A stretch of DNA of 64,000 nucleotides, taken from assembly GCF_001678845.1 (NCBI RefSeq), contig NZ_MAIQ01000002.1, positions 248,001 to 312,000 of the forward strand, in the 5' to 3' direction. Below the pieces are notes generated by a model. The model did no database searches and had not been told where the DNA came from. It was given only the letters and a program-made list of their open reading frames with translations. Of the stretch, positions 1-16,097 are shown piece after piece. How positions within the stretch are numbered: the stretch's first letter is position 1; the number at the start of each line of letters is the position of its first letter. Both the position numbers and the translations under genes were made by a program. This DNA is from Christensenella intestinihominis. Lineage in GTDB: Bacteria; Bacillota; Clostridia; Christensenellales; Christensenellaceae.

Positions 1-1444
1 CTTTCAATAAATCCGAACCCTCTATATCCCGAAGGGAAATGGTCTTTGCACCTTCCGTATAATTTAATGTGATGACGACCTTATCGTCATATAAATAAAT
101 CGCGTTGACGAAGCTGTCTATCAGCCTCTGTCTCTGCTCCCGTTTCGTGATATCGCTGTCCCGGAAACGATAGATGAAAAAGGATATCTGCTCCCTCGTC
201 AATAAAGGATGCCGTATCTTCTCCTGCAGGATACTCGTTTGCAGTTTGCTTTTCGTTTCCTCCAGTTCCCGCAGCCTTTCCTTTGTCGATTCTGTCAAAA
301 GTCCCTGCTGGATCGCGTCCAGCAAATTTCGTATCCCATTTTCCGTTTCCGCAAGCTGCCGTTCCAGCAAAGGAAGCTCCCTGCTCTCCTTGGATTGCAG
401 ATTCAACAGCGCGTCGATCAGCCGTTCCAGTTCGTCGTCATGCATCAATTCCTGCATAATGCGGCTGACTACAAAGTTCTCGATCCAGTCCTTTTGCACA
501 GCTTTTTTATCACAGGTCTTTCTTTGCTTGGTATTCGTGCATTTGTAGTAGCGATAGATCTTCGCCGTATGGCTCGTACCGCTTTCCCCCACCATAAAGG
601 CTCCGCACTTTCCGCAATACAGCTTTGTCGTCAGCAGATAATCGTCCTCCGCCTTGTGTCTTGCCGGAGCCTTCTTGTTCTGCTTCATCCGCTCCTGCGC
701 ACGTTCAAACAATTCTTCTGAAATGATCACAGGCATCCCGCCCGGCGTTACGATATCCCCATAGCGGTATTCGCCAAGATACCGCCTGTTTTTCAGCATG
801 TGGGAAATGATATTCAAAGAAATCGGTCCGCCTCTTGAAGAACGGATCCCCTTAGCGTTCAGCCCGTCCGCGATCTCTTTCATTGTTGCACCTTCCGCAT
901 ATTGGTTGAAAACTTCCTGCACAATGGGGGCAGCAACTGGATCGATCTGAAAATGCCGTTCGCTGTCGACCACATATCCCATCGGTATACTGCACCCGTT
1001 AGATTTGCATTTCAGCGCATTTTCTTTCATGCCGCGCCTGACCTTTTCGGAAAGCTCTGCCGAAAAGAATTCTGCATATCCCTCTAAAACCGATTCCAAC
1101 AGGATACCTGTCGAGTCCTCTGCGATACTCTCCCGTGCTGAAACGACTTTCACGCCGTTTTTCCGCAGGATCATCTTATAATGGGCGGAGTCGTAGCGGT
1201 TGCGCGCGAAGCGGTCGAGCCGCCATACGATCGCCACATCAAACAGCCCCTTTGTGCTGTCCTTTATCATTCGCTGGAAATCCGGCCGGTTATCCGTTTT
1301 AGCCGAAAGTGCCCGGTCAATATATGTTCCAAGAATATTGATATCCTGTTTTTCTGCAAACTCCATACATTCGCGAATCTGTCCTTCAATGGATTCCTCG
1401 CGCTGGTTGTCCGAGGAATACCGCGCATAGATCACTCCGTTCAT
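1..1444 (-). CDS. Large serine recombinase, 3' end beyond window
   Basis: Reads leftward from ATG at 1444 and is still open at base 1, so about 481 residues are visible and the C-terminus is missing. The N-terminus has the resolvase signature YARYSSDNQ with the catalytic serine at residue 10 or 11. It is followed by a DRFARNRYDS helix region, a Recombinase domain and a Cys zinc ribbon (CGKCG...C...C), and then a coiled region, the order seen in large serine integrases of clostridial mobile elements. Its start codon overlaps the stop of the 98-residue gene upstream (ATGA), indicating translational coupling. It probably excises and integrates the element that fills the left 16 kb. Its visible end (EGSDLLK) shares a 17-bp stretch with DNA beside tRNA-Arg at 15916-15932. 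Confidence 0.93.
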   Translation of the reverse strand, partial: MNGVIYARYSSDNQREESIEGQIRECMEFAEKQDINILGTYIDRALSAKTDNRPDFQRMIKDSTKGLFDVAIVWRLDRFARNRYDSAHYKMILRKNGVKVVSARESIAEDSTGILLESVLEGYAEFFSAELSEKVRRGMKENALKCKSNGCSIPMGYVVDSERHFQIDPVAAPIVQEVFNQYAEGATMKEIADGLNAKGIRSSRGGPISLNIISHMLKNRRYLGEYRYGDIVTPGGMPVIISEELFERAQERMKQNKKAPARHKAEDDYLLTTKLYCGKCGAFMVGESGTSHTAKIYRYYKCTNTKQRKTCDKKAVQKDWIENFVVSRIMQELMHDDELERLIDALLNLQSKESRELPLLERQLAETENGIRNLLDAIQQGLLTESTKERLRELEETKSKLQTSILQEKIRHPLLTREQISFFIYRFRDSDITKREQRQRLIDSFVNAIYLYDDKVVITLNYTEGAKTISLRDIEGSDLLK

Positions 1445-1737
1445 TGCTTCGATTCCTCCGGATTCGATTTCGCCAATTCGCCCATATCCTTTACCAGATT
1501 TCGGAAAGTTTCCTCGCCGTCCAAATAAACGTCATTGTAATAAATCGGCTTGCCGAATAAAATTTTTACCGCTCGTTTTATTCGTTCCCACACGGTATTA
1601 TAATTGTGATCATATCTGGAATCCTGAATCGAAATATTATAACCGATGTCTCCTTCTTCCCACACCGTCTTCTCGATCACAAACGTACAGCATTTGCAAT
1701 CGCAGGGCAAAGTGATCCTTTTGCTGATTGAGTTCAT
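1441..1737 (-). CDS. Hypothetical protein, 98 aa, recombinase-linked
   Basis: I do not recognise this family. The protein has a short Cys cluster near residue 12 (CDCKCC), a charged middle and no membrane segment. A good ribosome binding site (GGGAGG) precedes the ATG at 1737. The stop codon overlaps the recombinase ATG by the ATGA arrangement, and the Fic gene ends 53 bp upstream, so the three genes probably form one transcript. The cysteine spacing might bind a metal, but nothing else in the sequence shows it. A role as an accessory of excision or as part of the Fic module is only inferred from position. Confidence 0.7.
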   Translation of the reverse strand: MNSISKRITLPCDCKCCTFVIEKTVWEEGDIGYNISIQDSRYDHNYNTVWERIKRAVKILFGKPIYYNDVYLDGEETFRNLVKDMGELAKSNPEESKQ

Positions 1738-1790
1738 GATTTTCCTCCCGCTTTTGTCCTTTAGAAATCATCTGGCTGTGCAATCGCCTT

Positions 1791-2693
1791 TCAACCCATA
1801 TAGCCAATGCCAATGCGGAAATAATCGAGATACTGTTTGAATGTATCCTGCGCCGCAAGACAGGTATCGGTCAAATATCCCTCTGTATGATGCCATTCGG
1901 CCAATCCCCGATAGTAAAACATTTTTAATTTATCATCGATGATAAAGGGAACGATATTATGCTTCAAACACTCTTTGAACAGGATAAGCCGCCCCACACG
2001 CCCGTTTCCGTCCTGAAACGGATGGATCAATTCAAAGCGTACATGGAAGTTTATTATATCATGCAGCGTCGGCGATTCGATTGCCCTATATTTTTTGAGC
2101 AGGGAATTCATCTCTGTTTCTACATCTTCCGGCAGCGTCGTTGCTTTTCCTCCGACTTCATTCGGCAGCCGTTTATATTTCCCAACTGCAAACCAGCTTT
2201 TCCGCGAGTCGCTCGTTCCATTCTTTAAGGTCTGATGAAGTTCTTTAATCCATCTTTCGCTGAGCATTTTTCCCGCGTCTTCAATCACCATATCGATACA
2301 GCGGAAATGATTTACCGTCTCGATAATATCGTCTACATTCATCCCATCCTCTGCGACGCCAATAGTGTTCGTTTCAAAAATATACCGCGTCTGGTCGTGG
2401 GTGAGTCTGCTGCCTTCCATATGGTTTGAATTATATGTCAGGTCGATCTGTATCTTATGATAGATACCCCCTCTCATACCGGAATCTTTTTCCGCACGCA
2501 AAATATCCAGAAGTACCTGCATCGTTTCTTTTTTCTTGTTGGCGCGTTTGGGTTTCACGGCGTTTTCCGGGATATTCCACGTCTTTCCTTTTCGGAACGC
2601 CCCCGGTATTCTTCCGTTCGCACAATAATTCCGCACGCTTCTCTCAGATATATCCCATTTTTTAGCTGTTTCCGCAACCGATAAGAATTTCAT
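1791..2693 (-). CDS. Fic-family AMPylase with N-terminal helix-turn-helix
   Basis: 300 residues. Residues 1-45 resemble a MerR/excisionase-like DNA-binding helix-turn-helix. The core carries the full Fic motif HPFQDGNGRVGR at 224-235, whose His is the catalytic base for transfer of AMP to a hydroxyl of a target protein. Upstream, S89-N-H-M-E93-G94 fits the (S/T)xxxE(G/N) inhibitory helix of class II Fic proteins, in which the Glu blocks productive ATP binding, so the enzyme probably inhibits itself and needs no separate antitoxin. RBS GAGGT lies 7 bp before the ATG. It heads the cluster with the 98-aa protein and the recombinase. The target and the trigger are unknown. Confidence 0.92.
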   Translation of the reverse strand: MKFLSVAETAKKWDISERSVRNYCANGRIPGAFRKGKTWNIPENAVKPKRANKKKETMQVLLDILRAEKDSGMRGGIYHKIQIDLTYNSNHMEGSRLTHDQTRYIFETNTIGVAEDGMNVDDIIETVNHFRCIDMVIEDAGKMLSERWIKELHQTLKNGTSDSRKSWFAVGKYKRLPNEVGGKATTLPEDVETEMNSLLKKYRAIESPTLHDIINFHVRFELIHPFQDGNGRVGRLILFKECLKHNIVPFIIDDKLKMFYYRGLAEWHHTEGYLTDTCLAAQDTFKQYLDYFRIGIGYMG

Positions 2694-2717
2694 AGCAGTA
2701 CCTCATTCACTGCTTTT

Positions 2718-2723
2718 ATTATA
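2718..2723 (-). promoter_or_regulatory. Candidate -10 box of the Fic-recombinase operon
   Basis: Reads TATAAT on the minus strand about 25 bp before the Fic start. The best -35 at 17-bp spacing is the weak TCAATA, so the assignment rests mainly on the perfect -10. Confidence 0.5.
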
Positions 2724-2967
2724 CCACGGATTCGGCAATATATTGATAATTTTTTTATTTTTTATGTTTTTAGCCGATATTCTTTAAGTTATGAAAATAT
2801 TCAAGTATATTTTTATTTTGCAAATAATATCTGTTACTTTTATGAAAAGATAATATAAAATTCCCGTATAGATTTTATTATACTGCCTATTCTAAAAAGT
2901 TACAAGTGGGTAGTGGATTTAGCATATATATTGTACAAAAAACTATAGAGAGATTAACTATTAAAGC
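2724..2967. other. AT-rich intergenic stretch
   Basis: About 245 bp of strongly AT-rich DNA between the Fic promoter and the IS3 remnant. No gene, tRNA or strong hairpin is visible in it. The missing 5' part of the insertion sequence was probably lost in this interval. Confidence 0.6.
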
Positions 2968-3391
2968 ATGGCTGGTTGTATCTTGTTGTTTTTATTGACA
3001 TCTATTCCCGTAAGGTGACTGGATGGATCATGGACACCATGGTTCGGGATACGTTGGTTTTACCAGTGCTTACCCAAGCAATCTGCCGAAAACATCCGCC
3101 AGAGGGATTGATTATTCATACAGATAGAGGTTGCCAATTTACAGTACGCAGATTTCAGTCTATGTGTATTCGCTGCGGCTTCCGGCAAAGCATGAGCCGA
3201 AAAGGTAACCCTTATGACAATGCTATTATGGAATCTTTCTACCGCATCCTAAAAAGAGGGCTTGTTCAGGATGTCAAGTATGACAATCCCGAACAAGCCC
3301 GCATGGATATCTTCAAATACATTGAACTTTACTACCATACATTCCCATACATTCTGCTTTAGGTTAGCTCAGTCCGGCGTAATTTGAAGCT
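2968..3391 (+). pseudogene. IS3-family transposase (OrfB) remnant
   Basis: The readable part starts at GWLYLVVFIDIYSRKVTGW and runs through HTDRG (second catalytic Asp) and NPYDNAIMESF (catalytic Glu), typical of the IS3/IS150 rve domain. The first catalytic Asp and all of OrfA are absent, and an in-frame stop lies just upstream. Near 3350 one base is missing: the other frame then continues HSALG-stop-LSPA-stop-FEA, the conserved IS3 end (HSALGYLSPxxFE), with TAG at 3365 and TAA at 3380. The copy is therefore truncated, frameshifted and twice interrupted. The sequence GTGTCTGTTTTTTGGG at about 3417-3432 looks like the outer IS end. Confidence 0.88.
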
Positions 3392-3504
3392 ATAAAGATT
3401 TAACCGCTTTTAACTTTGTGTCTGTTTTTTGGGCATGAACAAATTTCCCTTCAAAATATTGTCTGCTTTTTGTGGCGCTTCAAATTTGATGCCCTATCTA
3501 ACTT

Positions 3505-4386
3505 TTATTCTCCAAAAAATTGATCTAATTCCGATGCCAGAAGCTCTGGGCATTCCTCTGCCATCTGGTGGCCATAGTCGAGGACAACACTGGTGACATC
3601 TTCTGCAACCAGTTTCATTTCACGTTCCACTTCTTCGAAAATGAATTCTCTGCCTCCCAGTGCCAACACCGGCATTTTTAGCTTTTCTTTGGCCGCTTCG
3701 AGATTCCACTCCGCATCTTGGAATGTAGCTCTGTAAATTTCGCACATACTCCGGATGCTGTCTGGCTTTGAATAGCATCGGATATATTCATCCATCGCAT
3801 CATCTGGAATATTACAGTCCAGCGCCTCATTCTTTAAGAACTGATCAAAATAGATCCGTTCGCGTCCCGTAATCAGCGCCTCTGGAAATGCCGGCACATT
3901 ATAAAAATTGATGTGCCACAGCCAACGGTTACCTTCCACATTTTCCGGCGTCAGATGAGACCATTCTTCCAGTCCGAAACCGGGCAGGAGCATCTCGATA
4001 TAGGCAAATTTCATTACGCGGTCAGGATACTTTTTTGCGATGCAGTATCCGCACGCCGCGCCCCAATCTTCTCCCGTCAGATAAAACTTATCGATCCCGA
4101 GCTGGTCGGCCAGCGATACGATGTCGTCCGCCATCGTCATCATGTCATACCCGTCTTTCGGACGGTTTGAATCCCCAAGGCCGCGGAGATCCGGGCATAC
4201 GACCGTGTATTTCTCCGTTAGGATAGGTATGAGTTTCCGCCAGTAATAAGAGGTTTTGGGAACGCCGTGAAGCAGGATCAGCGCCGGTCCCTGCCCTGCC
4301 GTGTAATAATGCAGGCGAACTCCGTTGCAGGTCTTGCGGGAATGAGTTACCTTGTTGCCCTGAAAGTCCAAAATATCTTGTTTCAT
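3505..4386 (-). CDS. Alpha/beta hydrolase, epoxide hydrolase/dehalogenase-like
   Basis: 293 residues with the alpha/beta hydrolase fold: oxyanion-hole motif HGVP near residue 40, nucleophile elbow GEDWGA near 105 and a late His in DYGHQMAEE near 272. An Asp nucleophile in GxDWG is typical of epoxide hydrolases and haloacid dehalogenases rather than of serine esterases. The usual His before the Asp (GHDWG) is Glu here. RBS AGGAGA precedes the ATG. It is the last gene of the sugar-importer operon, 39 bp after the permease, so its natural substrate may be an aglycone or modified sugar brought in by the transporter, which is inference. Confidence 0.85.
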   Translation of the reverse strand: MKQDILDFQGNKVTHSRKTCNGVRLHYYTAGQGPALILLHGVPKTSYYWRKLIPILTEKYTVVCPDLRGLGDSNRPKDGYDMMTMADDIVSLADQLGIDKFYLTGEDWGAACGYCIAKKYPDRVMKFAYIEMLLPGFGLEEWSHLTPENVEGNRWLWHINFYNVPAFPEALITGRERIYFDQFLKNEALDCNIPDDAMDEYIRCYSKPDSIRSMCEIYRATFQDAEWNLEAAKEKLKMPVLALGGREFIFEEVEREMKLVAEDVTSVVLDYGHQMAEECPELLASELDQFFGE

Positions 4387-4425
4387 GTTTTCTTCTCCTT
4401 TTTATTTTATTTAAATTAATTGCAG

Positions 4426-5385
4426 TCAAACTTTTTTGCGTTTTTCTCCAAAGGCGATCGCCAAAATGATGATCGCGCCCGTCACCATATATTGCTGTGC
4501 GATATTAAGTCCCATAATCACGATTCCGTTATTAATCACGCCGATCAAAAGCGACGCGACTACCGTTCCTATGATCGAGCCCTTTCCGCCGGACAGCGCG
4601 GCGCCGCCGAGGATCGCCGCGGCGATTGCGTTTAGCTCAATGCCGCCCTCCCCGATCGTGCTGCGTGCCGTTTGCATCAGGCCTGCAGACAGCATACCGG
4701 AAATGGCGGCCACGATCCCAATAACCAGCATGACCATAAATTTAACCTTTTTTGTGGAAATGCCGGAGAACTCCGCCGCCACTCTATTAGCCCCGGTCGC
4801 GAGCACCTCGCGCCCGTAAGACGTTTTCTTGAGCACGACGTGCCCAATCAGCAGCGCTGCCGCCGTCCAGATCACCAGCACCGGCACGGGGCCGATGCTC
4901 GCCTGTCCGAAAATATTGTTGAACGCTGCATCGCCAATGATGACCGGCTTGGTATTGGTAAGCCACATATCCGCCCCACGAACTACCATCTGCATACCGA
5001 CCGTTACGATAAACGACGGAATGCCAAGCCCGGCGACGAGCGCCCCGTTGGCCGCGCCCACAAGCGCTCCTCCCGCGAGACCCGCTAAAATGCCAATGAA
5101 CGCGTTCCCGGTCGCTTGGATCGCAAGGGCCGCAAAGATTGCGCCAAACGCCGCCGTCGCTCCGACCGAGAGGTCGAATTCGCCTGCCGCAATGGTAAAC
5201 GTCATTGCGACCGCGATCAGCGTTGTCATCGTAGTCGTCCTGACTATGCTCAACAGGTTGCTTGGTTTTAGGAAACCAGAATCACCGATTGAAAACAGAA
5301 AGAACAGGAAAACGCCGATGAAAACAAAGTATACGATGTAATTTCTCCATTCAAAGCTTCTTCTGCTAGAGACCTTGGATTGCAT
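4426..5385 (-). CDS. Sugar ABC transporter permease (RbsC-like)
   Basis: 319 residues from the ATG at 5385, chosen because AGGAGG lies about 9 bp upstream; a longer frame to 5487 has no such signal. Eight or more hydrophobic segments and the block TFTIAAGEFDLSVGAT, with the later AILGGAALSGGKGS loop, place it in the BPD_transp_2 family of ribose/galactose/inositol permeases. It sits in the membrane and pairs with the upstream ATPase, with whose 3' end it overlaps by 20 bp. The paired binding protein lies two genes upstream. Confidence 0.94.
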   Translation of the reverse strand: MQSKVSSRRSFEWRNYIVYFVFIGVFLFFLFSIGDSGFLKPSNLLSIVRTTTMTTLIAVAMTFTIAAGEFDLSVGATAAFGAIFAALAIQATGNAFIGILAGLAGGALVGAANGALVAGLGIPSFIVTVGMQMVVRGADMWLTNTKPVIIGDAAFNNIFGQASIGPVPVLVIWTAAALLIGHVVLKKTSYGREVLATGANRVAAEFSGISTKKVKFMVMLVIGIVAAISGMLSAGLMQTARSTIGEGGIELNAIAAAILGGAALSGGKGSIIGTVVASLLIGVINNGIVIMGLNIAQQYMVTGAIIILAIAFGEKRKKV

Positions 5386-6868
5386 GATGAAGCACCTCCT
5401 CCGATTCAATTTCTCGCCCGGACAGTTCTTTATTGACCGTCCGGTTGTACAGGACCAGAATCCGGTCGCATGCCGCCACCAGCTCACTCAATTCCGACGA
5501 GATCATCAGTACCGCAACACCCTCGTCGGCAAGCTGCCTTATGATACGCAGGATTTCGGCTTTGGCCGCGACGTCGACGCCAATGGTCGGCTCGTCGAGA
5601 ATCAAAACCCTGGGGCCGCGCGCAAGCCATTTGCCCAGGACAATTTTCTGCTGGTTGCCGCCGGAAAGCAGCATGGCCATCTGCTTGATGCTATCCGCCT
5701 TGATCGACAGCTTCTCAATATATTCCCGGGAAATATCCGCCCCTTTTTTATCGTCGATCAAAAAACCTTTTCTCATCTGCCGGACGCTTGGAAGCATAAA
5801 ATTGCTTTTGATGCTGTGCTGCAGAATCAGCCCTTCCTGCCTGCGGTCTTCGGGAACGAGTGCGATTCCTTTATTCATCGCGTCTTTTTTGCTTTTGACA
5901 GGCTCTCCCCGCACAACAACTTCTCCCGTCCAATTTCTTCTTATGCCGAAGATGGATTCGACAAGCTCCGTCCTTCCGCTCCCCATCAATCCGGCAAGTC
6001 CCAGTATTTCTCCCGGGTATAGGTCAAACGAGACGTCCGCGAGCTTATTGCCATACGCAAAATCCCTTACGCGCAGCACGGGATCGCCGGACTGTTCAAA
6101 ATTCCTTTCCACACGCTCAAAGGAGGTTTTGGCCGCTGCATCGAGCATCTTATCGATGATTTCTTCCATTGTAGTATCTCTGCTTTCGACCGTTGCAACG
6201 TTGATTCCGTCGCGCAGGATCGTCACCCTGTCGCAAATTTCAAAAACCTCAGCCATCCTGTGTGAAATATATATGATGGAGATCCCCTTTTCCTTGAGCT
6301 GGCGGATCACCTTAAACAGCGCCTTCGTTTCCGTCTTCGACAAAGAAGACGTAGGTTCGTCCATAACCAATATTTTTGCATCCTGAGACAGCGCCTTTGC
6401 GATTTCGACCATCTGCCAATAGCCGACGTCCAGCGACTCGACCGCAACCCGGGGATCGATATTGTCAATTTCCAGCCATTTCAGCAGTTCCTCAGCTTTC
6501 TTCATGTTTTTTCTATCATCGATCAATCCGCCCTTTTTCCACTCGCGCGTAATGTAAATATTTTCCGCGACGCTCATGGCGGGCAGCAGGCTGAACTCCT
6601 GGTAGATCATCGCGATGCCCTTTTTGTGCGCATCCTCCACACTGTGCAGGTCGGCCTCCTGCCCATCGATCCGTATTTGCCCCGCGTCCTTTGTATACAC
6701 GCCGTTCAATATCTTCATCAGCGTAGATTTTCCGGCGCCGTTGCCTCCGAGCAGGGCGTGGACTTCACCCTTTTTCAGGGAAAAATTCATTTTTTTCAGG
6801 ACAGGAACGCCGTTGAATTGTTTTTCGATATTGTGCATTTCCAAAACGTTTTCATTCATCTTTGCCAC
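5366..6868 (-). CDS. Sugar ABC transporter ATP-binding protein (RbsA-like)
   Basis: 500 residues with two fused nucleotide-binding domains, as in RbsA/MglA/XylG. Domain one has Walker A GGNGAGKST and Walker B ILVMDEPT. Its signature loop is degenerate (LDVGYWQ). Domain two has the usual degenerate P-loop (GLMGSGRTEL) and the intact LSGGNQQK signature with ILDEPT. It energises the permease encoded just downstream. The gene follows the binding protein after an 80-bp gap that holds a strong hairpin. Confidence 0.96.
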   Translation of the reverse strand: MAKMNENVLEMHNIEKQFNGVPVLKKMNFSLKKGEVHALLGGNGAGKSTLMKILNGVYTKDAGQIRIDGQEADLHSVEDAHKKGIAMIYQEFSLLPAMSVAENIYITREWKKGGLIDDRKNMKKAEELLKWLEIDNIDPRVAVESLDVGYWQMVEIAKALSQDAKILVMDEPTSSLSKTETKALFKVIRQLKEKGISIIYISHRMAEVFEICDRVTILRDGINVATVESRDTTMEEIIDKMLDAAAKTSFERVERNFEQSGDPVLRVRDFAYGNKLADVSFDLYPGEILGLAGLMGSGRTELVESIFGIRRNWTGEVVVRGEPVKSKKDAMNKGIALVPEDRRQEGLILQHSIKSNFMLPSVRQMRKGFLIDDKKGADISREYIEKLSIKADSIKQMAMLLSGGNQQKIVLGKWLARGPRVLILDEPTIGVDVAAKAEILRIIRQLADEGVAVLMISSELSELVAACDRILVLYNRTVNKELSGREIESEEVLHHAIQGL

Positions 6869-6885
6869 CCTGTAAAATGGGCTGT

Positions 6886-6917
6886 AAGGCGGAACCGGAA
6901 AGGTCCTGTTCCGCCTT
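6886..6917 (-). promoter_or_regulatory. Intercistronic hairpin between binding protein and ATPase
   Basis: AAGGCGGAAC and GTTCCGCCTT form a perfect 10-bp stem with a 12-base loop. There is no U-run after it. Such hairpins after binding-protein genes usually protect the upstream mRNA and raise its level relative to the transporter genes. That role is inferred. Confidence 0.55.
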
Positions 6918-6948
6918 GTCCCATTCGGATTTTTTACATATTTTCAGT

Positions 6949-8256: not shown

Positions 8257-8309
8257 TTCTTTCCTCCTTGTTTTCTCTTGATATTGGATGTTTCCAAAAC
8301 CTGTTTCGC

Positions 8310-9467
8310 TCAAACTTTTTCCCATGCGCGGCTCGCGCCCGACCTCAGGACGGCGTCGCTGATCCTCTCGATCTGGTAGCCGTCTTCAAAATTAGGCGAG
8401 GCCTGTTTGTTTTCCGCAATCGCCTTGATGAAATCGTAGCACTCGACGATCTTGGTCTCCGTATATCCGATTCCCAGCGCCGGGATCGGCCACAGGCCTT
8501 CGCCGTAAGGGTGGGCCGGGCCGGTGTAAATCGTACGGAAGCCCCGGCGGTCTCCCCCGTCGCTTGCAAAGCAGACCTGCAGTTCATCCCTGCGTTCGTA
8601 ATTGAAATAGATGGAGCCTTCCGTCCCGTGGATCTCAAGCGTAATGAAGTTATTGCGGCCCCACGCATTCCTCGTCGCCTCTATCGTGCCGAACGCGCCG
8701 CTTTTGAAATTAATCATAAAGCAGCACTGGTCGTCCACGTCAACCTTTCCTTTCGGCCCGCTGCCGCCTTTCACATTCCCAAGGCTGTCCGCGGAACCGG
8801 TTTGCAGCGGCCGTTCGTTTATATACGTTGCGACACGCGCGTTTACCTCGTCGAAGTCTCCGATGAGGAACCGCGCCATATCGACCACATGCGTCCCGAT
8901 ATCTCCAAGCGCGCCCGAGCCACAAACCTTTTTCTGGAACCTCCAGGAAAGTGGGGAATCCGGATCGGCCGACCAATCCTGCAAATAGGTCCCGCGGAAA
9001 TCCAGGATCGTCCCGATCGCCCCTTCGTCAATTAATTTTTTTGCAAGCTGTACTGCGGGCGTCCGCCTGTAATTGAACGCAAGCATATTGATTACGCCGG
9101 CTTTCCTAACGGCGTCGCGCATCTTTTCGGCTTCCTCGAGCGTTCTTGAGATCGGCTTTTCGCACAGGATATGCTTCCCGGCTTCTGCCGCCGCCACAGC
9201 GATTTCGTAGTGCGCGTCGTTTGGCGTACAGATATCAACGATATCGATCTCGGGATCGTCCACAATGTCGCGCCAATTCGCCGTCCCCTGCCGGAATCCC
9301 AGCCGTTGCGCCGCGTCCTTCGCGCATTCCTCCGTCAAATCGGCAATGGTCTTTTTGACCGCCATCCCCGGCGCCGGCCAAAAAAACATCGGCATCCCGT
9401 CGTATGCAATGGAATGTGCTTTTGCCATAAATCCCGCGCCGATCAAACCTACCTGATAAGTCTTCAT
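8310..9467 (-). CDS. Gfo/Idh/MocA-family oxidoreductase
   Basis: 385 residues. The N-terminal Rossmann domain has the dinucleotide motif GLIGAGFMAKAH and the hallmark catalytic EKPISRTLEEAE; the C-terminal domain is the matching beta-sheet substrate domain. Family members oxidise or reduce sugars and cyclitols with NAD(P). The gene has a GAAAGGAG ribosome site and lies between the isomerase and the binding-protein genes, so it likely acts on the imported compound. An oxidoreductase of this type next to a TIM-barrel isomerase is also found in 3-keto-glycoside and C-glycoside degradation, a possible but unproven pathway here. Confidence 0.93.
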   Translation of the reverse strand: MKTYQVGLIGAGFMAKAHSIAYDGMPMFFWPAPGMAVKKTIADLTEECAKDAAQRLGFRQGTANWRDIVDDPEIDIVDICTPNDAHYEIAVAAAEAGKHILCEKPISRTLEEAEKMRDAVRKAGVINMLAFNYRRTPAVQLAKKLIDEGAIGTILDFRGTYLQDWSADPDSPLSWRFQKKVCGSGALGDIGTHVVDMARFLIGDFDEVNARVATYINERPLQTGSADSLGNVKGGSGPKGKVDVDDQCCFMINFKSGAFGTIEATRNAWGRNNFITLEIHGTEGSIYFNYERRDELQVCFASDGGDRRGFRTIYTGPAHPYGEGLWPIPALGIGYTETKIVECYDFIKAIAENKQASPNFEDGYQIERISDAVLRSGASRAWEKV

Positions 9468-9493
9468 TTGTTTCTCCTTTCAATTTTTGTTTC

Positions 9494-10309
9494 TTAAAAT
9501 CCCTGTTTCTTCAAATAATGTGACGTGATCCGCGCCCCCTCTGCCGGATCGCCCGTCCAGCCGTCGCATTCAATCGCAATCTCAATCCTGTGCGGCGCTT
9601 TTTTGAGCGTTTCCACAATTGCATCTATATCAAGTATCCCGACTCCGAGAGGGCAGAACATACCGTCGTCCATAATGTCCTTCAGATGGATGTAATCGAT
9701 CCGATCAAGATATTGTTTTACGACCTCACGCGGGTCACCGCCGCCTTTTTTTACATGGGCAAGATCGGGACACAGTTTAATACGTGTATGCGGCATAACC
9801 TTGTCCAGCTGAACCGGGGACTCCACCAGCGACCCCATATGGGGATGGAAGCTCGCCCGCATCCCCAGTGTGTCTGCAAGGTCACAAACCCTGTCAAGCG
9901 CTTCGCCCAGCTTTACGTAATCCGATTCCCTGATTCCGTCAAACCGTATCGCGCCACCCCCAAGGGCTATCTCTGTTGCCCCGAGTTTTTTCGCAAACTG
10001 CGCGGCGCGGCGGACACGGTCCAGTTCTTCCGGCAGTATCTCGTCGTAAATAAAATTACAGGCGATATATACGCCCTTTAGCGCAAGGCCGTACTTTTCC
10101 AGCATTTTTTCCAGAAGCTCGCTGCGTCCCTCGAACTCCAGCAATTCTCCATCAAATATCTCCACCGATTCGAATCCTGCTTCCGCGATATCCGCCAGCG
10201 CCTGTTCGAGTTTGCCGCCGCACCTGTAATATGCGGCGTTTACACAATTTGGTGCGGCCCAGTGCGCCAGAACCGGTCCCCACGCATTTGTCGAGTAAGT
10301 GATTTTCAT
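9494..10309 (-). CDS. Sugar phosphate isomerase/epimerase, TIM barrel
   Basis: 271 residues of the AP-endonuclease-2/xylose-isomerase-like TIM-barrel family (IolE, IolI and ketose epimerases). Recognisable strand ends include FESVEIFDGE, the HPHMG segment with metal-ligand His, LCPDLAHVKKGGGDP and IDYIHLKDI near residue 200, followed by IAIECDGW. It is the first gene of the operon, with RBS GGAGAAAG. Together with the Gfo/Idh enzyme it suggests isomerisation or epimerisation of a sugar or cyclitol intermediate in the cytoplasm. Confidence 0.9.
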   Translation of the reverse strand: MKITYSTNAWGPVLAHWAAPNCVNAAYYRCGGKLEQALADIAEAGFESVEIFDGELLEFEGRSELLEKMLEKYGLALKGVYIACNFIYDEILPEELDRVRRAAQFAKKLGATEIALGGGAIRFDGIRESDYVKLGEALDRVCDLADTLGMRASFHPHMGSLVESPVQLDKVMPHTRIKLCPDLAHVKKGGGDPREVVKQYLDRIDYIHLKDIMDDGMFCPLGVGILDIDAIVETLKKAPHRIEIAIECDGWTGDPAEGARITSHYLKKQGF

Positions 10310-10441
10310 AAGCTTTCTCCTTTTTTATTTTTTTCGATTGCGCTAAAAAAGCGTAAATTAACAGAGCTACGGAAAATCTTGTTTTTCCGTTTCCATAACG
10401 GGTACGTCATTTGTTGTTTTATCTTTGTGTTTTTCCCTTTG

Positions 10442-10479
10442 TTTACGTATACTATAGTGCAGCAAAAAAAATAAAGAAA
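10442..10479 (-). promoter_or_regulatory. Candidate sugar-operon promoter with operator at start site
   Basis: On the minus strand TTTCTT (10479-10474) and TATAGT (10456-10451) are spaced 17 bp. Directly after the -10 comes TTTACGTATA (10442-10451), one base off the palindrome TTTACGTAAA found near the regulator gene. A repressor bound there would cover the start site. The -35 is weak. Confidence 0.5.
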
Positions 10480-10533
10480 GCAATTTTGTCCATTTTAACT
10501 TTTTTTCAGGAAAACACTATTTTTTATGCCTTT

Positions 10534-10543
10534 TTTACGTAAA
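10534..10543. promoter_or_regulatory. TTTACGTAAA operator
   Basis: A perfect 10-bp palindrome immediately after the regulator's stop codon and about 85 bp upstream of the sugar-operon promoter. It is identical to the two copies upstream of the regulator. It probably is an auxiliary operator of the LacI-type repressor. Confidence 0.55.
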
Positions 10544-10544
10544 T

Positions 10545-12536
10545 TCAACGGTTTTTATGCGGTTTCAGAAATTCAGGCGCAGGTTTTCTGATGATTTCGC
10601 GCCAATAACGCGTCAACTCGCGCGGGTATACCACCACCGGCTGCACGCCCACAAATTTATATCCTTTTTTCCCCAGAAGCGCCTGGATCGTAACCATTGC
10701 CGCTGCTTCGCCCTGCTCGTAAGGACGCTGCGCGCTTATGCCCCGCACCATTTCCCCGCGGGCCATATAAGATGCGATTTCCAAATCCAAATCCACCGTG
10801 GAAATGGCGACGTCCGTCCTTCCAAGCGTACGCAGGGCGCGTATCGCCTCCATTGCCGGGCGTTCCCACGACACATAAAGCCCGGAAATCTCCGGGTGTT
10901 CCCGCATCATTTGCATACAGGTATCATATACGTTTTGAATTTGGTAAAAATTTTTGCGCGATACGATCTGCAAATTGGTATAATTTTCCGTCAGAACCTG
11001 CTCGGCTGCATTATCCCGTTGGCGCGTCATGTGGAACGGCAGCCCATGATTTAACAAGCCCAGCTTGACATCCGTTCTTTCCCTGAAATATTCCCCCAAT
11101 ATATTTCCTGCATTTTGTCCGTTTTCCCGCTCGTTCACTGAAACGCAGCTATAATAGTCATTCTTGTCAATCCCCTGAGGTATATTTCCAATAAGAATCA
11201 TTTTTGTCAGGCGGGAGAGCTCCTTGAATTTGCCCGCCGTAATGTTTTCATCTACCGGAACGCCGATAATCGCATCCGGCTTCTGCATACGAAGCGCCTC
11301 AAGCTGCGTTACCTGCAGCTGCGCATTAAAATTTGCGTCCATCACCGCAATGACCTGTACGTTATAGCGCGCAAGCGTATCGCGGATCCCCGTTTCCTGA
11401 AGCCGGGACCATTCTGTATCCGTGCAGTGGAACGCGATGGCAACCTTGAATTGTTCCTTTTTTAAATATTCCTCTTCCGCCGTATCGACCAGTATGTTTT
11501 CAGGCGGAACGGCAATTTCCCCAAACGGCCCCCGATTGATGACGCGCGTGGATTTGCGGACCGTAAAACCGACGGGCATGCGAACCACTGTCTGTGCAGC
11601 AGAATTTCCTTTCAATAATCCCATCATCATCTCCACCGCACGCTTTGCGGTGCTAGCGGTATCCTGCCTGAGAATCGTAAGCGACGGATTAAAAATACTG
11701 CTCCATTCATCATCGCCAAAGCCGACAATGGAAATATCGTCCGGGCACTTCAAGCCGTAATCGTCCGCATTTTTCAGGAGTTTTAGGGTCAAAGTGTTTC
11801 CCGCCGCGATAAATGCAGAAGGGAGCGTATTGAAACGCGCTTTTTCAAAAATGTTTTCCTCTTCCTGGCAGTAAAGATCCACTCTGCAAACCAATCCTTT
11901 GTCGAATGGGACTTTATATTCCTCTAACGCGCGCCTATATCCCGCAAGACGCTCCTGGCAGTGAATCAAGTCGCAGTCTTCGAGCAGGATACCAATCAAT
12001 TTATGCCCGCTGCGAATCAAGTGGCGGGTCCCCCTGAACATCGCTTCTTCGTTTTCAGACAGTATGGCTGGAATTTCGCCGTCTTTCGTCTTGCGCTCCA
12101 CGCACATAAAAGGAATACCGGAACGCTTCACCTTTGTGTATATCCGCGACGCATTTACCGTAGGCGACAAAAAGATGCCGGCAATATTTTTATCCGCAAG
12201 CAGATTCATCAGGATATGCTTTTCATACTCTTCATTATCGTGGGAAACATAGGTCGAAAGGATATATCCCTCTTTTGCAAGAAGCTCTGTCATTGTGTTT
12301 GCAAGCTGTGCATATACGGTACTGTTTGTGGTGGGCAGCACAAATGCCATTCTGGATTGCCTTCCAAATTTGAATTGATTTCTTCGTATTTTATTGATAT
12401 ATCCTGTTTCATAAATGGCCCTTTCTACTTTTTGCGTCAGCTCTGGGCTGACATAACGGGTCTTGTTGATAACATGGGATACCGTGGCAATCGATACTCC
12501 CGTCATTTTTGCAATCTCTTTTATTGTAATATTCAA
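10545..12536 (-). CDS. LacI-family regulator with two tandem sensor domains
   Basis: 663 residues, about twice the usual 330-350. Residues 1-50 form a LacI helix-turn-helix (ITIKEIAKMTGVSIATVSHV). Residues about 60-330 form the normal LacI sensor. Residues about 355-650 form a second periplasmic-binding-type domain that resembles the operon's binding protein at 6949-8256: both contain a VIA-x-x-DAN segment and a GIS-x-Q-x-PY-x-QG segment followed by an ALLG/ALIG helix, in the same order. The second domain lacks a signal peptide and so senses ligand in the cytoplasm. RBS GGGAG lies about 12 bp before the ATG. It reads toward the sugar operon on the same strand and most likely represses both. 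Confidence 0.9.
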   Translation of the reverse strand: MNITIKEIAKMTGVSIATVSHVINKTRYVSPELTQKVERAIYETGYINKIRRNQFKFGRQSRMAFVLPTTNSTVYAQLANTMTELLAKEGYILSTYVSHDNEEYEKHILMNLLADKNIAGIFLSPTVNASRIYTKVKRSGIPFMCVERKTKDGEIPAILSENEEAMFRGTRHLIRSGHKLIGILLEDCDLIHCQERLAGYRRALEEYKVPFDKGLVCRVDLYCQEEENIFEKARFNTLPSAFIAAGNTLTLKLLKNADDYGLKCPDDISIVGFGDDEWSSIFNPSLTILRQDTASTAKRAVEMMMGLLKGNSAAQTVVRMPVGFTVRKSTRVINRGPFGEIAVPPENILVDTAEEEYLKKEQFKVAIAFHCTDTEWSRLQETGIRDTLARYNVQVIAVMDANFNAQLQVTQLEALRMQKPDAIIGVPVDENITAGKFKELSRLTKMILIGNIPQGIDKNDYYSCVSVNERENGQNAGNILGEYFRERTDVKLGLLNHGLPFHMTRQRDNAAEQVLTENYTNLQIVSRKNFYQIQNVYDTCMQMMREHPEISGLYVSWERPAMEAIRALRTLGRTDVAISTVDLDLEIASYMARGEMVRGISAQRPYEQGEAAAMVTIQALLGKKGYKFVGVQPVVVYPRELTRYWREIIRKPAPEFLKPHKNR

Positions 12537-12676
12537 AATCTATCTCCCAATCAATTTTCTTATGGTATTCAGATTGCTTTCTGTTATTCAGACTGCCGCA
12601 ATACAAACTGTTTTTGGTATATATCATAATCTTTTTAGCCTAATAAAATCAATCAGTTGAAAATATTTTGCCATAA

Positions 12677-12705
12677 TTTACGTAAAGCTGCTCAATTTAC
12701 GTAAA
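12677..12705. promoter_or_regulatory. Two TTTACGTAAA operators upstream of the regulator
   Basis: Perfect palindromes at 12677-12686 and 12696-12705 with centres 19 bp apart, about 140 bp upstream of the regulator start. The second extends to AATTTACGTAAATT. The same word recurs at 10534 and, with one change, at 10442, so autoregulation by the LacI-type protein is likely. Confidence 0.6.
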
Positions 12706-12886
12706 TTATATTAAATATATTAAAAATAGAAAAAGTCATATTTATATTTTGGGCAGACTTATTATTGATTCAATTAAACTATGCAAAATCAAAAGTTATT
12801 AAAATATTATATATCTCTATTTATTCCTATATAACAAAACAATACGATCAATTGCGAAAATATATGAAATACTATTTGTTTATATC

Positions 12887-12953
12887 AGCGGCTAATCCGC
12901 TTAGGGTCATAGGGACGATAGTCCCTAACAAGCTGCAAAAGTATATACTTTTG
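12887..12953. repeat. Three consecutive perfect hairpins
   Basis: AGCGG/CCGCT (12887-12901), AGGGAC/GTCCCT with loop GATA (12911-12926) and the 20-bp palindrome GCAAAAGTATATACTTTTGC (12934-12953) follow one another in an otherwise gene-free 480-bp stretch (12537-13018). They lie after the XRE repressor gene and may end its transcript. No clear poly-U tail is present on either strand, so another role for the mobile element is possible. Confidence 0.6.
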
Positions 12954-13018
12954 CGATGCTTGCAAAGGACACGCGCCTCTCTTTTTTGTTGTTTTTTGCA
13001 GCTGAACAAGGCTCAAAG

Positions 13019-13486
13019 CTATTTTTGCTTCTTTTGCAGCTCACGCACAGCCCGTATGTTTCGTTCCGTCCGTATTTTGGGAAAGGTATGCCGCCATTCG
13101 TCATAGTCCTCGCGGGAAATCTTATCCTCCGCAAACGCCTGCCGCTCTTTGCACCATGAACGCACATCCTCATAAAGGGAATTTTCAATCGGGAACTTCA
13201 GCACAATCTCTCCGCTGCGGTCAATCGGCTCCAGTCCATAGGTATCCTCCAAATAAAATAAGGCGTGCATCACCCCGATGTAAGTGTCAAGGTCCGGATC
13301 AGACAGGGCGAACCGGCTCACCCCGAGCGCACCCGCCAAAGCCTCCAACCGCTTGACCGACGGGATACGGTTCCCCAGCTCATAGTTGCGTACCGCGGGC
13401 TCGCTCATCCCTGCCCGCAGCCCCAGCTCCTTCTGGGAAAGCCCCCGTTCCAGTCTGTATTTCCGTATCTTTTCCCCTGTCGTCAT
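13019..13486 (-). CDS. XRE-family transcriptional regulator
   Basis: 155 residues. Residues 5-60 are a Cro/C1-type helix-turn-helix (IRKYRLERGLSQKELGLRAGMSEPAVRNYE, given here only in part). The C-terminal 90 residues are a charged domain I cannot assign. It is transcribed divergently from the relaxase gene, and three CAGTTCA-type repeats lie between the two genes over both promoters, so it probably represses itself and mobilization. RBS AAAAGGAG precedes the ATG. Confidence 0.88.
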   Translation of the reverse strand: MTTGEKIRKYRLERGLSQKELGLRAGMSEPAVRNYELGNRIPSVKRLEALAGALGVSRFALSDPDLDTYIGVMHALFYLEDTYGLEPIDRSGEIVLKFPIENSLYEDVRSWCKERQAFAEDKISREDYDEWRHTFPKIRTERNIRAVRELQKKQK

Positions 13487-13523
13487 TACTTTTTTCTCCT
13501 TTTTGTTGTTACTATCTGTGACC

Positions 13524-13618
13524 AGTATATCATAAACAGTTCACTTCTGAAATATTTTTATTGACAGTTCATATTTGTACTGATAGAATCATATCGTGAG
13601 CAGTTCATATGCGAACTG
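13524..13618. promoter_or_regulatory. Divergent xre/mob promoters with three operator repeats
   Basis: The plus-strand promoter for mob is TTGACA (13561-13566), 17 bp, TAGAAT (13584-13589). The minus-strand promoter for xre has TATACT at 13524-13529 with a weak TTTCAG 17 bp upstream. Repeats of the form CAGTTCA(n5)GxACTG occur at 13565-13582 and 13601-13618, and a less complete copy starts at 13537. One lies inside the mob promoter spacer and another inside the xre promoter spacer, as expected for a repressor shared by both genes. Confidence 0.7.
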
Positions 13619-13672
13619 CTGCTTGCGTCTATCTCGGATATACAGCCCCGCAGGGCCCTCGGAGAGCCCGCA

Positions 13673-13734
13673 TGACAGCTTTCGGAGCGGAGCACGAAAG
13701 TGTCATAGTGGGTCAAATACTTTTCCAAAGTATT
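13673..13734 (+). other. Candidate origin of transfer (oriT)
   Basis: In the leader of the relaxase gene, TGACAGCTTTCG (13673-13684) and CGAAAGTGTCA (13695-13705) form an inverted repeat with one bulged base. It is followed at once by TAGTGGGTC, which recalls the TAGTGTG nick region of MobV plasmids such as pMV158. A second hairpin, AATACTTT/AAAGTATT, follows at 13716-13734. Inverted repeat, then nick-like sequence, then mob gene is the normal oriT layout of this relaxase family. The nick position is inferred. Confidence 0.6.
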
Positions 13735-13779
13735 CTCCCGGCGCTCCCTGCGGCACGCAGCGAAAGGAAGGTGAAGTTC

Positions 13780-15003
13780 ATGCCCAAACCAGACCGTACC
13801 GTCGTGCGCAACAAGCCTTACACGAAAAAAGCAATCGGTATCCGTGAGCGGCACAACGAGCGGAAGAACGAATCGTACAGCAACCCGGACGTCATACCGG
13901 AGCGGAGCGGAAACAATGTATATTTCAAAAAGTGCGAAGGGACCTATGCGCAGGCCTTTGACAGGCTGGTACAGGACAAGGTCGTCAGCACACGTGGACT
14001 CAGGCAGGACGCCAACGTATTCGACGAGATGGTATTCGACGTCAACACCGCGTACTTTGAGCGGCACGGCGGCTATGCGTATGCCGTAAGGTTCTACCGG
14101 AAGGCATACAAGCTCGCCGCAGAGATCGCGGGCGGCGAGCAGTACATTATCTCGGCGGTCATGCACGCGGACGAGCGGAACCGCAGCCTGTCCGCCGAAT
14201 ACGGATATGACGTATATCATTACCACCTGCACGTCGTGTATATCCCTGTAGTGGAAAAGGAGATCCGGTGGACAAAGCGGTGCAGAGACAAAGCCCTTAT
14301 AGGCAAGGTCAAGGAGGTGGTTCATCAGGTCAGCCATTCCAAGAAATGGGGATCGAGGAAAATGACGGACGAACGCGGAAACACGATACGGGACGGGAAG
14401 GGGAAGCCCCGTCTGGTACATCCGTACAGCCTGTTGCAGGACAGATTCTACGAACACATGAGGGACGCGGGATATACGGATTTTGAACGCGGGGTGCGCG
14501 GGAGCACCGCGGAGCACTTATCCGTACTGGATTACAAGTTGCGGCAGGAGCAGGAGAAAGTAAGAGAAATGGAGCGGAAAGCGCGGATGCGGCAGCAGGA
14601 ACTGGACAGGATCGAACAGGTACTGGAGCCCAAACGGGAGGTATATAAGACCTTTTATGAATTGGAACATACCGGAAAGAAGAAGATCTTCGGAAAGGTG
14701 GAACTGACCGGGGAGGAATTTGAGGGGATGCTCACGCTGGCCAAGGAGGGGATCGTGTCTCGCTCTACAATCCCGGAATTGAAGCGGGAGCTGGCGGAGA
14801 AGGAATGGAAGCTGCGGGATCTGCGAGGAGACTTTGACCGGCTATGGGAGAGTACGCGGGATTTCTTTCGGGCGGTGAAGATTGCGCCCAAAAGAGTAAA
14901 GGAATTATTGGAAGACATTTTTGCCAAAGACCGTGCGGAACGGGAGCGGGAGCGGCAGATGCGCAGGGAAAGCCGCAGCCGCAATAACGCCCCGATACGG
15001 TAA
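13780..15003 (+). CDS. MobV-family relaxase (Mob/Pre)
   Basis: 407 residues from the ATG at 13780, preceded by AGGAAGG; a longer frame from 13609 would run through the oriT and is unlikely. Motifs of the MobV/Pre family are present: HNER at 25-28, then YSNPD, and the metal-binding block HADE (129-132) followed by HYHLH (147-151). The C-terminal half is a long charged coiled coil ending in Arg-rich sequence. The protein would nick oriT and pilot single-stranded DNA into a conjugative channel supplied by another element. No type IV secretion genes are in the window, so the element is mobilizable and not self-transmissible. Confidence 0.93.
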   Translation: MPKPDRTVVRNKPYTKKAIGIRERHNERKNESYSNPDVIPERSGNNVYFKKCEGTYAQAFDRLVQDKVVSTRGLRQDANVFDEMVFDVNTAYFERHGGYAYAVRFYRKAYKLAAEIAGGEQYIISAVMHADERNRSLSAEYGYDVYHYHLHVVYIPVVEKEIRWTKRCRDKALIGKVKEVVHQVSHSKKWGSRKMTDERGNTIRDGKGKPRLVHPYSLLQDRFYEHMRDAGYTDFERGVRGSTAEHLSVLDYKLRQEQEKVREMERKARMRQQELDRIEQVLEPKREVYKTFYELEHTGKKKIFGKVELTGEEFEGMLTLAKEGIVSRSTIPELKRELAEKEWKLRDLRGDFDRLWESTRDFFRAVKIAPKRVKELLEDIFAKDRAERERERQMRRESRSRNNAPIR

Positions 15004-15051
15004 GTACCTTGAAAACTGAATAGAGTCTGACAACTGAATACGGAGGGATAC

Positions 15052-15216
15052 ATGGTAAGGAAGGCAAAGGAGGAGAAAATACCACAGTACGAGATCGACA
15101 CACTGGCTCGCTGCCTGCTCCCGGAGATACAAAGATTCTTTGAGAGCGAGGAAGGTCAGAAAGAGTTTCGGGAGTGGAAGCGGAAACAAAAATTAAAGAA
15201 AAAGAAAATCGGGTAA
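15052..15216 (+). CDS. Small protein downstream of relaxase, 54 aa
   Basis: A short ORF with GGAGGG before its ATG, 48 bp after the relaxase stop. The product is charged, with a helical core (IDTLARCLLPEIQRFFES) and a lysine-rich tail. Small ORFs of this appearance are common between mob and recombinase genes in clostridial mobilizable elements, as I recall. I do not know a function; a mobilization or recombination accessory is possible. Confidence 0.72.
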   Translation: MVRKAKEEKIPQYEIDTLARCLLPEIQRFFESEEGQKEFREWKRKQKLKKKKIG

Positions 15217-15281
15217 TATGAATTGGCGGCCGGTATTCATATAGATACCGTCCGCCTTATCATTGGATACTCTGACTTAGG

Positions 15282-15491
15282 TTAAAGTTTCCTTAGCACT
15301 TCGAAATCTCCAAATTGGTCATTATTCATTCCCGATATTATTTGTGTATATGTACTAAACTCGGCTGATAAACTATACAGTTTTACCTCATCGCCATATA
15401 TCAACGCCACTTTTATCATATCAATATCCAGATGGATATCCAATCTGCTTTTGGGTAATGTTGCTACAGCAATCTGGAATTTCTCCATCAT
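15282..15491 (-). CDS. Hypothetical protein, 69 aa
   Basis: I do not recognise the family. The ATG at 15491 has GAGAGG 7 bp upstream; a GTG at 15506 in the same frame is a less likely start. Hydrophobic residues alternate (LDIHLDIDMIKVALIY) as in a small beta protein. It is convergent with the relaxase module and lies downstream of tnpV, and has its own strong promoter. Confidence 0.6.
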   Translation of the reverse strand: MMEKFQIAVATLPKSRLDIHLDIDMIKVALIYGDEVKLYSLSAEFSTYTQIISGMNNDQFGDFEVLRKL

Positions 15492-15510
15492 ATCTAATCC
15501 TCTCACCTAT

Positions 15511-15539
15511 ATTATAAGTATATCATATCGTTCTTGCAA
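15511..15539 (-). promoter_or_regulatory. Promoter of the 69-aa gene
   Basis: On the minus strand TTGCAA (15539-15534), a 17-bp spacer and a perfect TATAAT (15516-15511), about 20 bp before the start codon at 15491. Confidence 0.65.
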
Positions 15540-15557
15540 TCTACGTATTATAGGGGA

Positions 15558-15863
15558 TTATTCTCTGATTATCTCATTAAGGATAACTTCCTCCGCCTGC
15601 GCTTTAATCGCATTCATCGTTCCAACCCACGCCATTTGATCGTGCGCTTTCAATTCTTCGTCGATGCCTTGCTCTTTTGCAATCTGGCAGGTATATTCCC
15701 ATATCCGATCCAGCACTTCCTTATTCAATTCACATAGATAATCTTCCAGACTACCCGAAAAGAGAAGCTCTGTGTATAAATCTTTCCGGTGCTCCTTGAT
15801 GAATACAAGCCGCATCCGTCCGTACCTGCCGATTTTTGATTCATTGATTTTGATTCTGCTCAT
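15558..15863 (-). CDS. TnpV family transposon-encoded protein
   Basis: 101 residues matching the TnpV family by the pattern IGRYGRMR...KEHRKDLYTELL...GSLEDYL near residues 12-46 and LKAHDQMAWVGTMNAIKAQAEEVIL near 72-96. TnpV proteins accompany serine recombinases in Tn4451-like and other clostridial elements; their biochemical role is not settled. Its ATG overlaps the stop of an upstream open frame (ATGA) that appears to be the C-terminal tail of a serine recombinase. Confidence 0.88.
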   Translation of the reverse strand: MSRIKINESKIGRYGRMRLVFIKEHRKDLYTELLFSGSLEDYLCELNKEVLDRIWEYTCQIAKEQGIDEELKAHDQMAWVGTMNAIKAQAEEVILNEIIRE

Positions 15864-15915
15864 TTTTTACGCCTCCGTTTGATTGGTTTTTTATCTTCAG
15901 AAGGCGCTAAGAAAA

Positions 15916-15932
15916 CAATAAATCCGAACCCT
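15916..15932. repeat. 17-bp direct repeat of the left window edge (att-like)
   Basis: CAATAAATCCGAACCCT occurs here and at 5-21 in the same orientation, 15.9 kb apart. Both copies lie in or near recombinase 3' sequence. Chance identity of 17 bp across this distance is unlikely. They may mark the two ends of the mobile element or a repeated word in the recombinase tail. Confidence 0.5.
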
Positions 15933-15958
15933 TCTCCGATTGGGATCAGGTTCGGATT
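15921..15958 (-). terminator. Stem-loop after tRNA-Arg
   Basis: AATCCGAACC and GGTTCGGATT form a perfect 10-bp stem followed on the minus strand by TATTGTTTTC. It could end the tRNA transcript, although it also lies in the presumed recombinase tail. Confidence 0.45.
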
Positions 15959-15967
15959 ATCTTGGTT

Positions 15968-16044
15968 TGGTGTGCCAGAAGGGATTCGAACCCCCGACCT
16001 CTTGATTCGTAGTCAAGCACTCTATCCAGCTGAGCTACTGGCAC
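15968..16044 (-). tRNA. tRNA-Arg (ACG)
   Basis: A complete cloverleaf on the minus strand with acceptor GTGCCAG/CTGGCAC, anticodon stem CTTGA/TCAAG, loop CTACGAA and anticodon ACG. The T arm contains GGTTCGAATCC. Discriminator A and a genomically encoded CCA are present. It borders the mobile element directly at its 3' end, a usual integration site. Confidence 0.97.
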
Positions 16045-16068
16045 AACTATAAAATTTGAAGCCTTATT

Positions 16069-16097
16069 ATTGTATAATAAAGACCTAAAAAAGTCAA
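16069..16097 (-). promoter_or_regulatory. tRNA-Arg promoter
   Basis: On the minus strand TTGACT (16097-16092), 17-bp spacer, TACAAT (16074-16069), ending 25 bp before the tRNA 5' end. Confidence 0.75.

Follow-up and report, generated by a model that had tools for sequence, protein, structure and literature searches.

Mobilizable elements of the Tn4451/Tn4453 type carry a TnpV protein, and integrases of the SSV1 type use tRNA targets. The locus described here lies in a stretch of 64,000 nucleotides from Christensenella intestinihominis (NCBI RefSeq assembly GCF_001678845.1, contig NZ_MAIQ01000002.1, positions 248,001 to 312,000 of the forward strand; hereafter the window), and its best overall explanation, which we hold to be very probably correct, is a 15,978-bp integrative mobilizable element (IME) in the 3' end of tRNA-Arg(ACG), with a large serine recombinase gene that contains the element's own attachment site (attP). 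According to excerpts of two papers (PMC4383910 and PMC9262239), serine integrases are not known to insert in tRNA genes, and self-disrupting integrases are described, again in excerpted text, as archaeal only. In the excerpts of a review of IMEs (PMC5704250), elements with serine recombinases insert within genes and the tRNA rows belong to tyrosine recombinases, and the word tRNA does not occur in the main text of Durrant 2022 (PMC10083194). No description of this recombinase family appeared among the papers listed by searches of the open-licence literature.

The closest described systems each share part of this arrangement. Clostridial mobilizable elements of the Tn4451/Tn4453 type have a serine recombinase and a MobV relaxase in common with the window's element (PMC5704250, excerpts), which encodes both a TnpV (PF14198) and a MobV-type relaxase (PF01076); unlike them, it targets tRNA 3' ends, has attP inside its recombinase gene, and carries catabolic cargo. 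Its recombinase is not close to TnpX, scoring 21.9 bits (E 6e-4) against the 120-residue TnpX chain PDB 2mhc, the sole TnpX sequence compared. In the suicidal, SSV1-type integrases of archaea, as here, the attachment site lies inside the integrase gene and the gene is altered on integration (PMC8371274, excerpts), but those are archaeal tyrosine enzymes with a split gene, whereas the present protein has the domains of a serine recombinase, is bacterial, and would exchange its C-terminal tail only. Integration-dependent immunity in mycobacteriophages likewise involves an attP within a gene, from which integration into a tRNA removes a C-terminal tail (PMC9262239, excerpts); there the gene encodes the repressor and a tyrosine-type integrase is at work, whereas here the gene encodes the recombinase itself.

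The window corresponds to G000:C12:248001-312000 in its own genome, G000, and the sequence to the left of its first base was also examined; negative coordinates denote bases to the left of window position 1. The element extends from about -4 to 15973, so that 1..15973 falls within the window. The core repeat TTTGGTGT is present at -12..-5 on the left and at 15966-15973 on the right, where this attR core overlaps the six terminal bases of tRNA-Arg(ACG) (15968-16044, minus strand; called by ARAGORN). This tRNA had been named in the original prediction, which put the right end at the tRNA 3' end and asked for a second att copy to the left of base 1; base 1 itself is merely the edge of the window. 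The left attP arm, AATCCGAACC (10..19), lies within the 3' end of the recombinase gene and was recognised from its sequence and its conservation. Directly after the tRNA comes a hairpin of AATCCGAACC and GGTTCGGATT (15921..15958, minus strand), followed by a T-rich stretch seen by eye; the right attP arm forms the hairpin stem at 15949-15958. An apparent displaced native terminator of the tRNA was also noticed by eye to the left of the element.

To compare the locus with sister genomes, the first 19 kb of the window, together with the 8 kb preceding it, served as a blastn query against five other Christensenella genomes, represented by 16 stretches. In G003, the window from -13 to 16045 is colinear at 98.66% identity over 11,753 bp and 99.95% over 4,308 bp, the two pieces meeting at the border of two separately taken stretches, and homology ends there. 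The tRNA of the G003 copy is Arg(CCG), and the orthologous right flank in that genome carries Arg(ACG) (ARAGORN); the chromosomal DNA that borders the tRNA on its right in the window is 78% identical in G003 and is located elsewhere there. At the tRNA-Arg(ACG) site of G001, the left end (window -134 to 2754, 98.8%) and the right end (12873 to 16099, 95.2%) enclose about 17.4 kb of different DNA. Because G003 has the full 16-kb stretch in colinear order next to another tRNA and the ends in G001 surround different cargo, the unit is confirmed as a single element of about 16 kb, as had been proposed. The tRNA-Arg(ACG) locus of G005, which aligns over 238 bp (83.6%) through the junction of the joined G000 host flanks, is the empty site that the original prediction had suggested looking for. 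When the G003 flanks were joined and compared with the tRNA-Arg(CCG) loci of G004, G001, and G000, the tRNA side aligned with at most about 12 bases beyond the junction, and no extended empty site was found there.

The large serine recombinase (2..1444, minus strand; Resolvase, Recombinase, and Zn_ribbon domains, PF00239, PF07508, and PF13408) extends leftward out of the window, through attL and on into host DNA, giving a protein of 648 aa in the integrated state. Integrated frames of this kind cross the core and run 167 residues (G000), 16 residues (G003), or 66 residues (G001) beyond the homologous part. Joining the ends of the window's element by script yields an attP with 10-bp inverted arms, through which the recombinase frame continues. 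Related recombinases were collected at 33 loci, 30 from a search of 396 genomes of the order, 69 of which matched with E values no higher than 1e-110, and 3 from a contig search. The motif TTCGGAT stands near the end of homology in 29 of the 33 (L056 and L079 among them being identical in sequence), always in the same reading frame and usually with an ACCA-type core after it by eye; this arm is missing in L087, L095, L100, and L102. Of 21 oriented loci (20 relatives and the window's own), 13 have both ends, those left out (L109, L113, L116, L117, L119, L121, L122, and L124) having no right end in the stretch examined; in L115 a right end is present but the left core is unparsed, and scoring was confined to the remaining 12 elements. 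In all 12, the recombinase frame of the joined element stays open for 22-50 codons beyond the core, whereas 20 codons were reached by 3 of 12 in frame +1, by none of 12 in frame +2, and by 24% of mononucleotide shuffles. The tail region carries the motifs NPN (NYPN in L123) and FGF, and the spacing between arms 2 and 3 is 22, 25, or 31 bases, which is 1 mod 3 in all 11 measurable cases. As read from these joined sequences, attP is inside the 3' end of the recombinase's own gene, and because the frame crosses it, integration replaces the C-terminal tail with host sequence. Neither a serine recombinase at a tRNA gene nor a frame crossing the att site had been mentioned in the original prediction. 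At the level of sequence, then, the unit, its ends and targets, the exchange of its cargo, and the frame through attP can be regarded as established.

Targets could be called by ARAGORN in 9 of the 12 other complete elements, namely Val, Leu (five), Trp, Arg(CCT), and Glu, with the tRNA at the recombinase end in the Arg(CCT) and Glu elements; the end of L108 resembles a tmRNA 3' end by eye, and those of L112 and L120 have no call. Relaxases are found in 11 of the 13 elements (9 Mob_Pre and 2 of the MobA/VirD2 type), none being recognised among the scanned open reading frames (ORFs) of L108 and L114, and type I restriction-modification genes occur in the cargo of L107 and L110. Among the 391 genomes searched in the class, 43 contain an attR signature, ATCCGAAC-n-GTTCGGATT-n-TGG, with no reversed pattern among the matches listed. 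ARAGORN placed 23 of 30 signature loci, a set in which 3 loci come from Christensenella, against the 3' end of a tRNA or tmRNA (Leu, Ala, Arg, Glu, Lys, Asn, Met, and tmRNA), with a gap of 0 in 19 loci and of 5 in 4.

Other insertions were noticed around these sites. Two repeats that open like the tRNA-Arg 3' end (GCCAGAAGGGAT) and continue into a GCGCGCG-rich insert lie to the left of the element (L007 19630-19960, window about -380 and -134), and comparable copies lie to the left of the G001 element; those in L007 may be scars that previous insertions into this tRNA have left. At the tRNA-Arg(ACG) of G003 (L041 11200-10750), the preceding frame resembles by eye the C terminus of a tyrosine integrase, and another type of element may therefore use this tRNA. 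The genome of the window holds further related recombinases: in elements at tRNA-Leu (G000:C1:173954-181236) and tRNA-Val (G000:C24; L105 2753-12067), and in an element with a recombinase frame interrupted by 1 TGA (G000:C7:51-5244), the end of this element resembling a tRNA-Arg(CCG) site by eye.

The cargo segment of the window's element (2755..12872) is replaced in G001, where backbone homology stops at 2754 and restarts at 12873. The proposed six-gene importer and catabolism operon with its own regulator was recovered here, all on the minus strand: an alpha/beta hydrolase (3505..4386; the NCBIfam matches listed are all under their cutoffs), the permease (4426..5391), ATPase (5366..6868), and binding protein (6949..8325) of a sugar ABC importer, a Gfo/Idh/MocA enzyme of the levoglucosan dehydrogenase type (8310..9467), an IolE-like TIM barrel isomerase or dehydratase that is a candidate for the next step (9494..10309; TIGR04379 under cutoff, PDB 3cny at E 6.3e-10), and a LacI-type regulator of 663 aa with an extra region resembling a sugar-binding protein (10545..12536). 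A fragment of an IS-type integrase core (rve, PF00665; 2976..3362, plus strand) lies inside the left cargo edge. The cargo of G001 comprises parts of a sugar ABC transporter, a glycyl radical enzyme that exceeds the cutoff of its subfamily (TIGR01774, 754 versus 678.2), its activating enzyme (TIGR02494, 334 versus a cutoff of 174.35), DhaL and RpiB domains that likewise pass, and a DeoR-type regulator that stays under the cutoffs. An operon with 87-92% DNA identity to that of the window, broken by about 5 kb, is present in G002 at another locus, where tblastn with eight backbone proteins gave only XRE-like matches in the surrounding 40 kb, and G004 carries a more distant version. Because G002 has the operon at another locus without recombinase or mob genes, the operon appears to be older in the genus than this element and to have been captured as cargo. 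The original prediction had held that strains keeping the operon in place without the mobile modules would speak against a single element; the G002 operon does lack these modules, but its locus is a different one.

The operon is expected to confer use of a sugar, and levoglucosan is its apparent substrate, since the dehydrogenase scores above the levoglucosan dehydrogenase cutoff (NF052479, 722.1 bits versus 650) and matches PDB 6a3f at 618.6 bits (E 3.1e-185). It is quite possible, though on balance doubtful, that another glycoside or anhydrosugar is used instead. The published levoglucosan pathway employs more enzymes, and here the dehydrogenase and a single IolE-like barrel were recognised for it, with no separate reductase recognised among the operon proteins; nor did any transporter subunit pass an equivalog cutoff among the matches listed.

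To find natural intact copies, IMG/VR was scanned for the arm pair as one attP, which gave 26 viral contigs. In 24 of these, attP falls within an ORF related to the recombinase (31-45% identical; 21 distinct 3' ends) that continues 15-38 codons past the second arm; the other two (L143 and L148) had no recombinase match. Six loci from a phage collection add to the comparison: two have the arm (L185 and L186), two have other palindromes by eye (L181 and L184), and in L182 and L183 neither was noticed. L184 (Dulem virus 37) and L181 (Roseburia phage Shimadzu) encode serine integrases 39-46% identical to the recombinase, with a palindrome in the 3' end that the integrase frame crosses (by eye); these are faecal phages, with arm sequences unlike those of the window's element, and possibly have self-overlapping attP sites with other arms. 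In ten related natural copies, the codons after arm 2 gave pN 0.28 and pS 0.81 (pN/pS 0.35), and a conserved 11-codon motif gave pN/pS 0.17, or 0.20 (pS 0.82) without its arm-like codons, values biased low by the choice of the motif for its conservation. That synonymous change is high while the peptide is kept speaks for protein-level selection on the tail. For L129, a relative with an intact tail, Foldseek showed the predicted fold of a large serine integrase, and the model says little about the tail.

In the preferred explanation, the recombinase links attP with the ACCA end of tRNA genes. The circle would encode the full recombinase with its conserved tail, its stop codon overlapping the start of TnpV (ATGA), and integration would exchange the final 35 recombinase codons for host sequence. 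The insertion leaves the tRNA whole, moves its apparent native terminator to the far side, and brings in a new hairpin with the right attP arm as one stem. A hairpin right after the tRNA was predicted in 10 of 10 cases (75 nt, -19 to -35 kcal/mol) and probably substitutes for the displaced terminator. A switch between alternative hairpins (terminator when integrated, antiterminator in the circle) was also considered; the upstream pairing was predicted in only 2 of 10 joined circles (L008 and L106), and the switch was dropped as a general mechanism. Because the tail belongs to the recombinase gene solely while the element is circular, selection on it, if at the level of protein, would act in the circle and point to integration; that the tail serves the circular state, and hence that integration alters the enzyme, comes close to an even matter but falls somewhat short of one. 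A built-in directional change of the recombinase is what we infer from this arrangement. In its widest form, the proposal is of a widespread bacterial family of tRNA-targeting serine recombinases that have attP in their own gene and whose C terminus is rewritten by recombination; only the circle would encode the full-length enzyme, which would drive integration, and the rewritten enzyme would stay integrated or only excise. In this form it is put forward tentatively and with more doubt than assurance.

Several observations weigh against this view. Past excision of the integrated copies must have relied on an enzyme with a foreign tail, or on help in trans, which leaves no obvious need for the tail in excision. 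Selection appears weaker in broader sets, pN/pS being 0.55 in 19 natural copies and, in joined circles, 0.61 (loop) and 0.86 (following FGF), at values of pS close to saturation. The tail residues partly overlap the DNA arms, and an arm-like TTCGGnT follows arm 2 in 14 of the 24 natural copies; part of the tail conservation may thus reflect DNA. The att-encoded stretch of L129 (residues 471-508) has pLDDT below 50 in AlphaFold, 7 of the 30 loci with the attR signature have no called tRNA adjoining them, and no reads, circle, or transfer were observed. Some of these points favour a simpler account, in which the recombinase truly ends at the GSDL arm and the open frame and conserved tail are merely DNA constraints of the attP arms and hairpin: arm-like sequence encodes the conserved peptides NPN and FGF/FGC, and the natural copies differ in the frame used for the second arm, two frames occurring. 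This account is nevertheless rather unlikely in light of the frames open in every scored element, the constant phase of the spacing, and the conservation of motif codons outside the arm-like part, low bias included. Less probable again is that the G000 copy is an immobile relic with its recombinase tail lost and no recognised helper; the 167 mostly host-derived residues of its integrated recombinase, and the lack of an observed circle, fit such a relic, but its core genes are open frames, and its near-identity with the G003 copy at a different tRNA implies recent movement. The alternative raised in the original prediction, two smaller elements bordering a resident chromosomal operon, gains something from G002 and G004, where the operon (in G004 a more diverged one) stands without mobile ends, but is rejected as next to impossible, being refuted by the colinear G003 copy among other neighbours unless that single-contig assembly errs there, and by the G001 ends that remain together around other genes.

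The remaining backbone genes fit the IME reading preferred here. The flanking genes named in the original prediction were all found by ORF and Pfam scans: besides the recombinase, these are a 98-aa protein with no family match that overlaps the recombinase start (1441..1737, minus), a Fic/DOC protein with an N-terminal helix-turn-helix (1791..2693, minus; PF02661 and PF12728), an XRE-type regulator (13019..13486, minus; PF01381), the MobV-type relaxase (13780..15003, plus; Mob_Pre, PF01076), a 74-aa ORF with no family match (15282..15506, minus), and TnpV (15558..15863, minus). The longest relaxase frame opens at 13609; the protein matches PDB 4lvi (E 2.7e-7) and scores 46.8 bits against NF041497, under the cutoff of 100. 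A conserved small protein of 54 aa with no Pfam family (15052..15216, plus) has a homologue in 11 of the 12 other complete elements; it occurs with either type of relaxase and also in L108, where no relaxase was recognised, and its conservation makes it, as a guess, a candidate recombination directionality factor. The element has its own integrase and direct-repeat att ends, as an IME does, and no conjugation pore genes were found among the 15 element proteins scanned, a set that leaves short overlapping ORFs outside it. Its recombinase falls short of the NCBIfam cutoff for an SCC cassette recombinase (CcrA/B/C), scoring 170.7 bits for CcrB against 900. The MobV gene and the distribution of the element in G000, G003, and G001 point to its mobilization, in which the relaxase would start transfer through the conjugation pore of a helper, carrying along the Fic protein, the regulators, and the exchangeable catabolic operon, here of the levoglucosan type, that lie between the ends.

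In Christensenella, catabolic operons appear to travel as exchangeable cargo, and with the attR signature the ends of elements at tRNA genes can be located to the base in many Clostridia. Serine integrases are in wide use as genome-insertion tools, and a family targeting the ACCA end of many tRNAs, with a gene that its own reaction edits, would be a testable natural case of built-in directionality; if the proposal is true, the control of directionality is built into the DNA.

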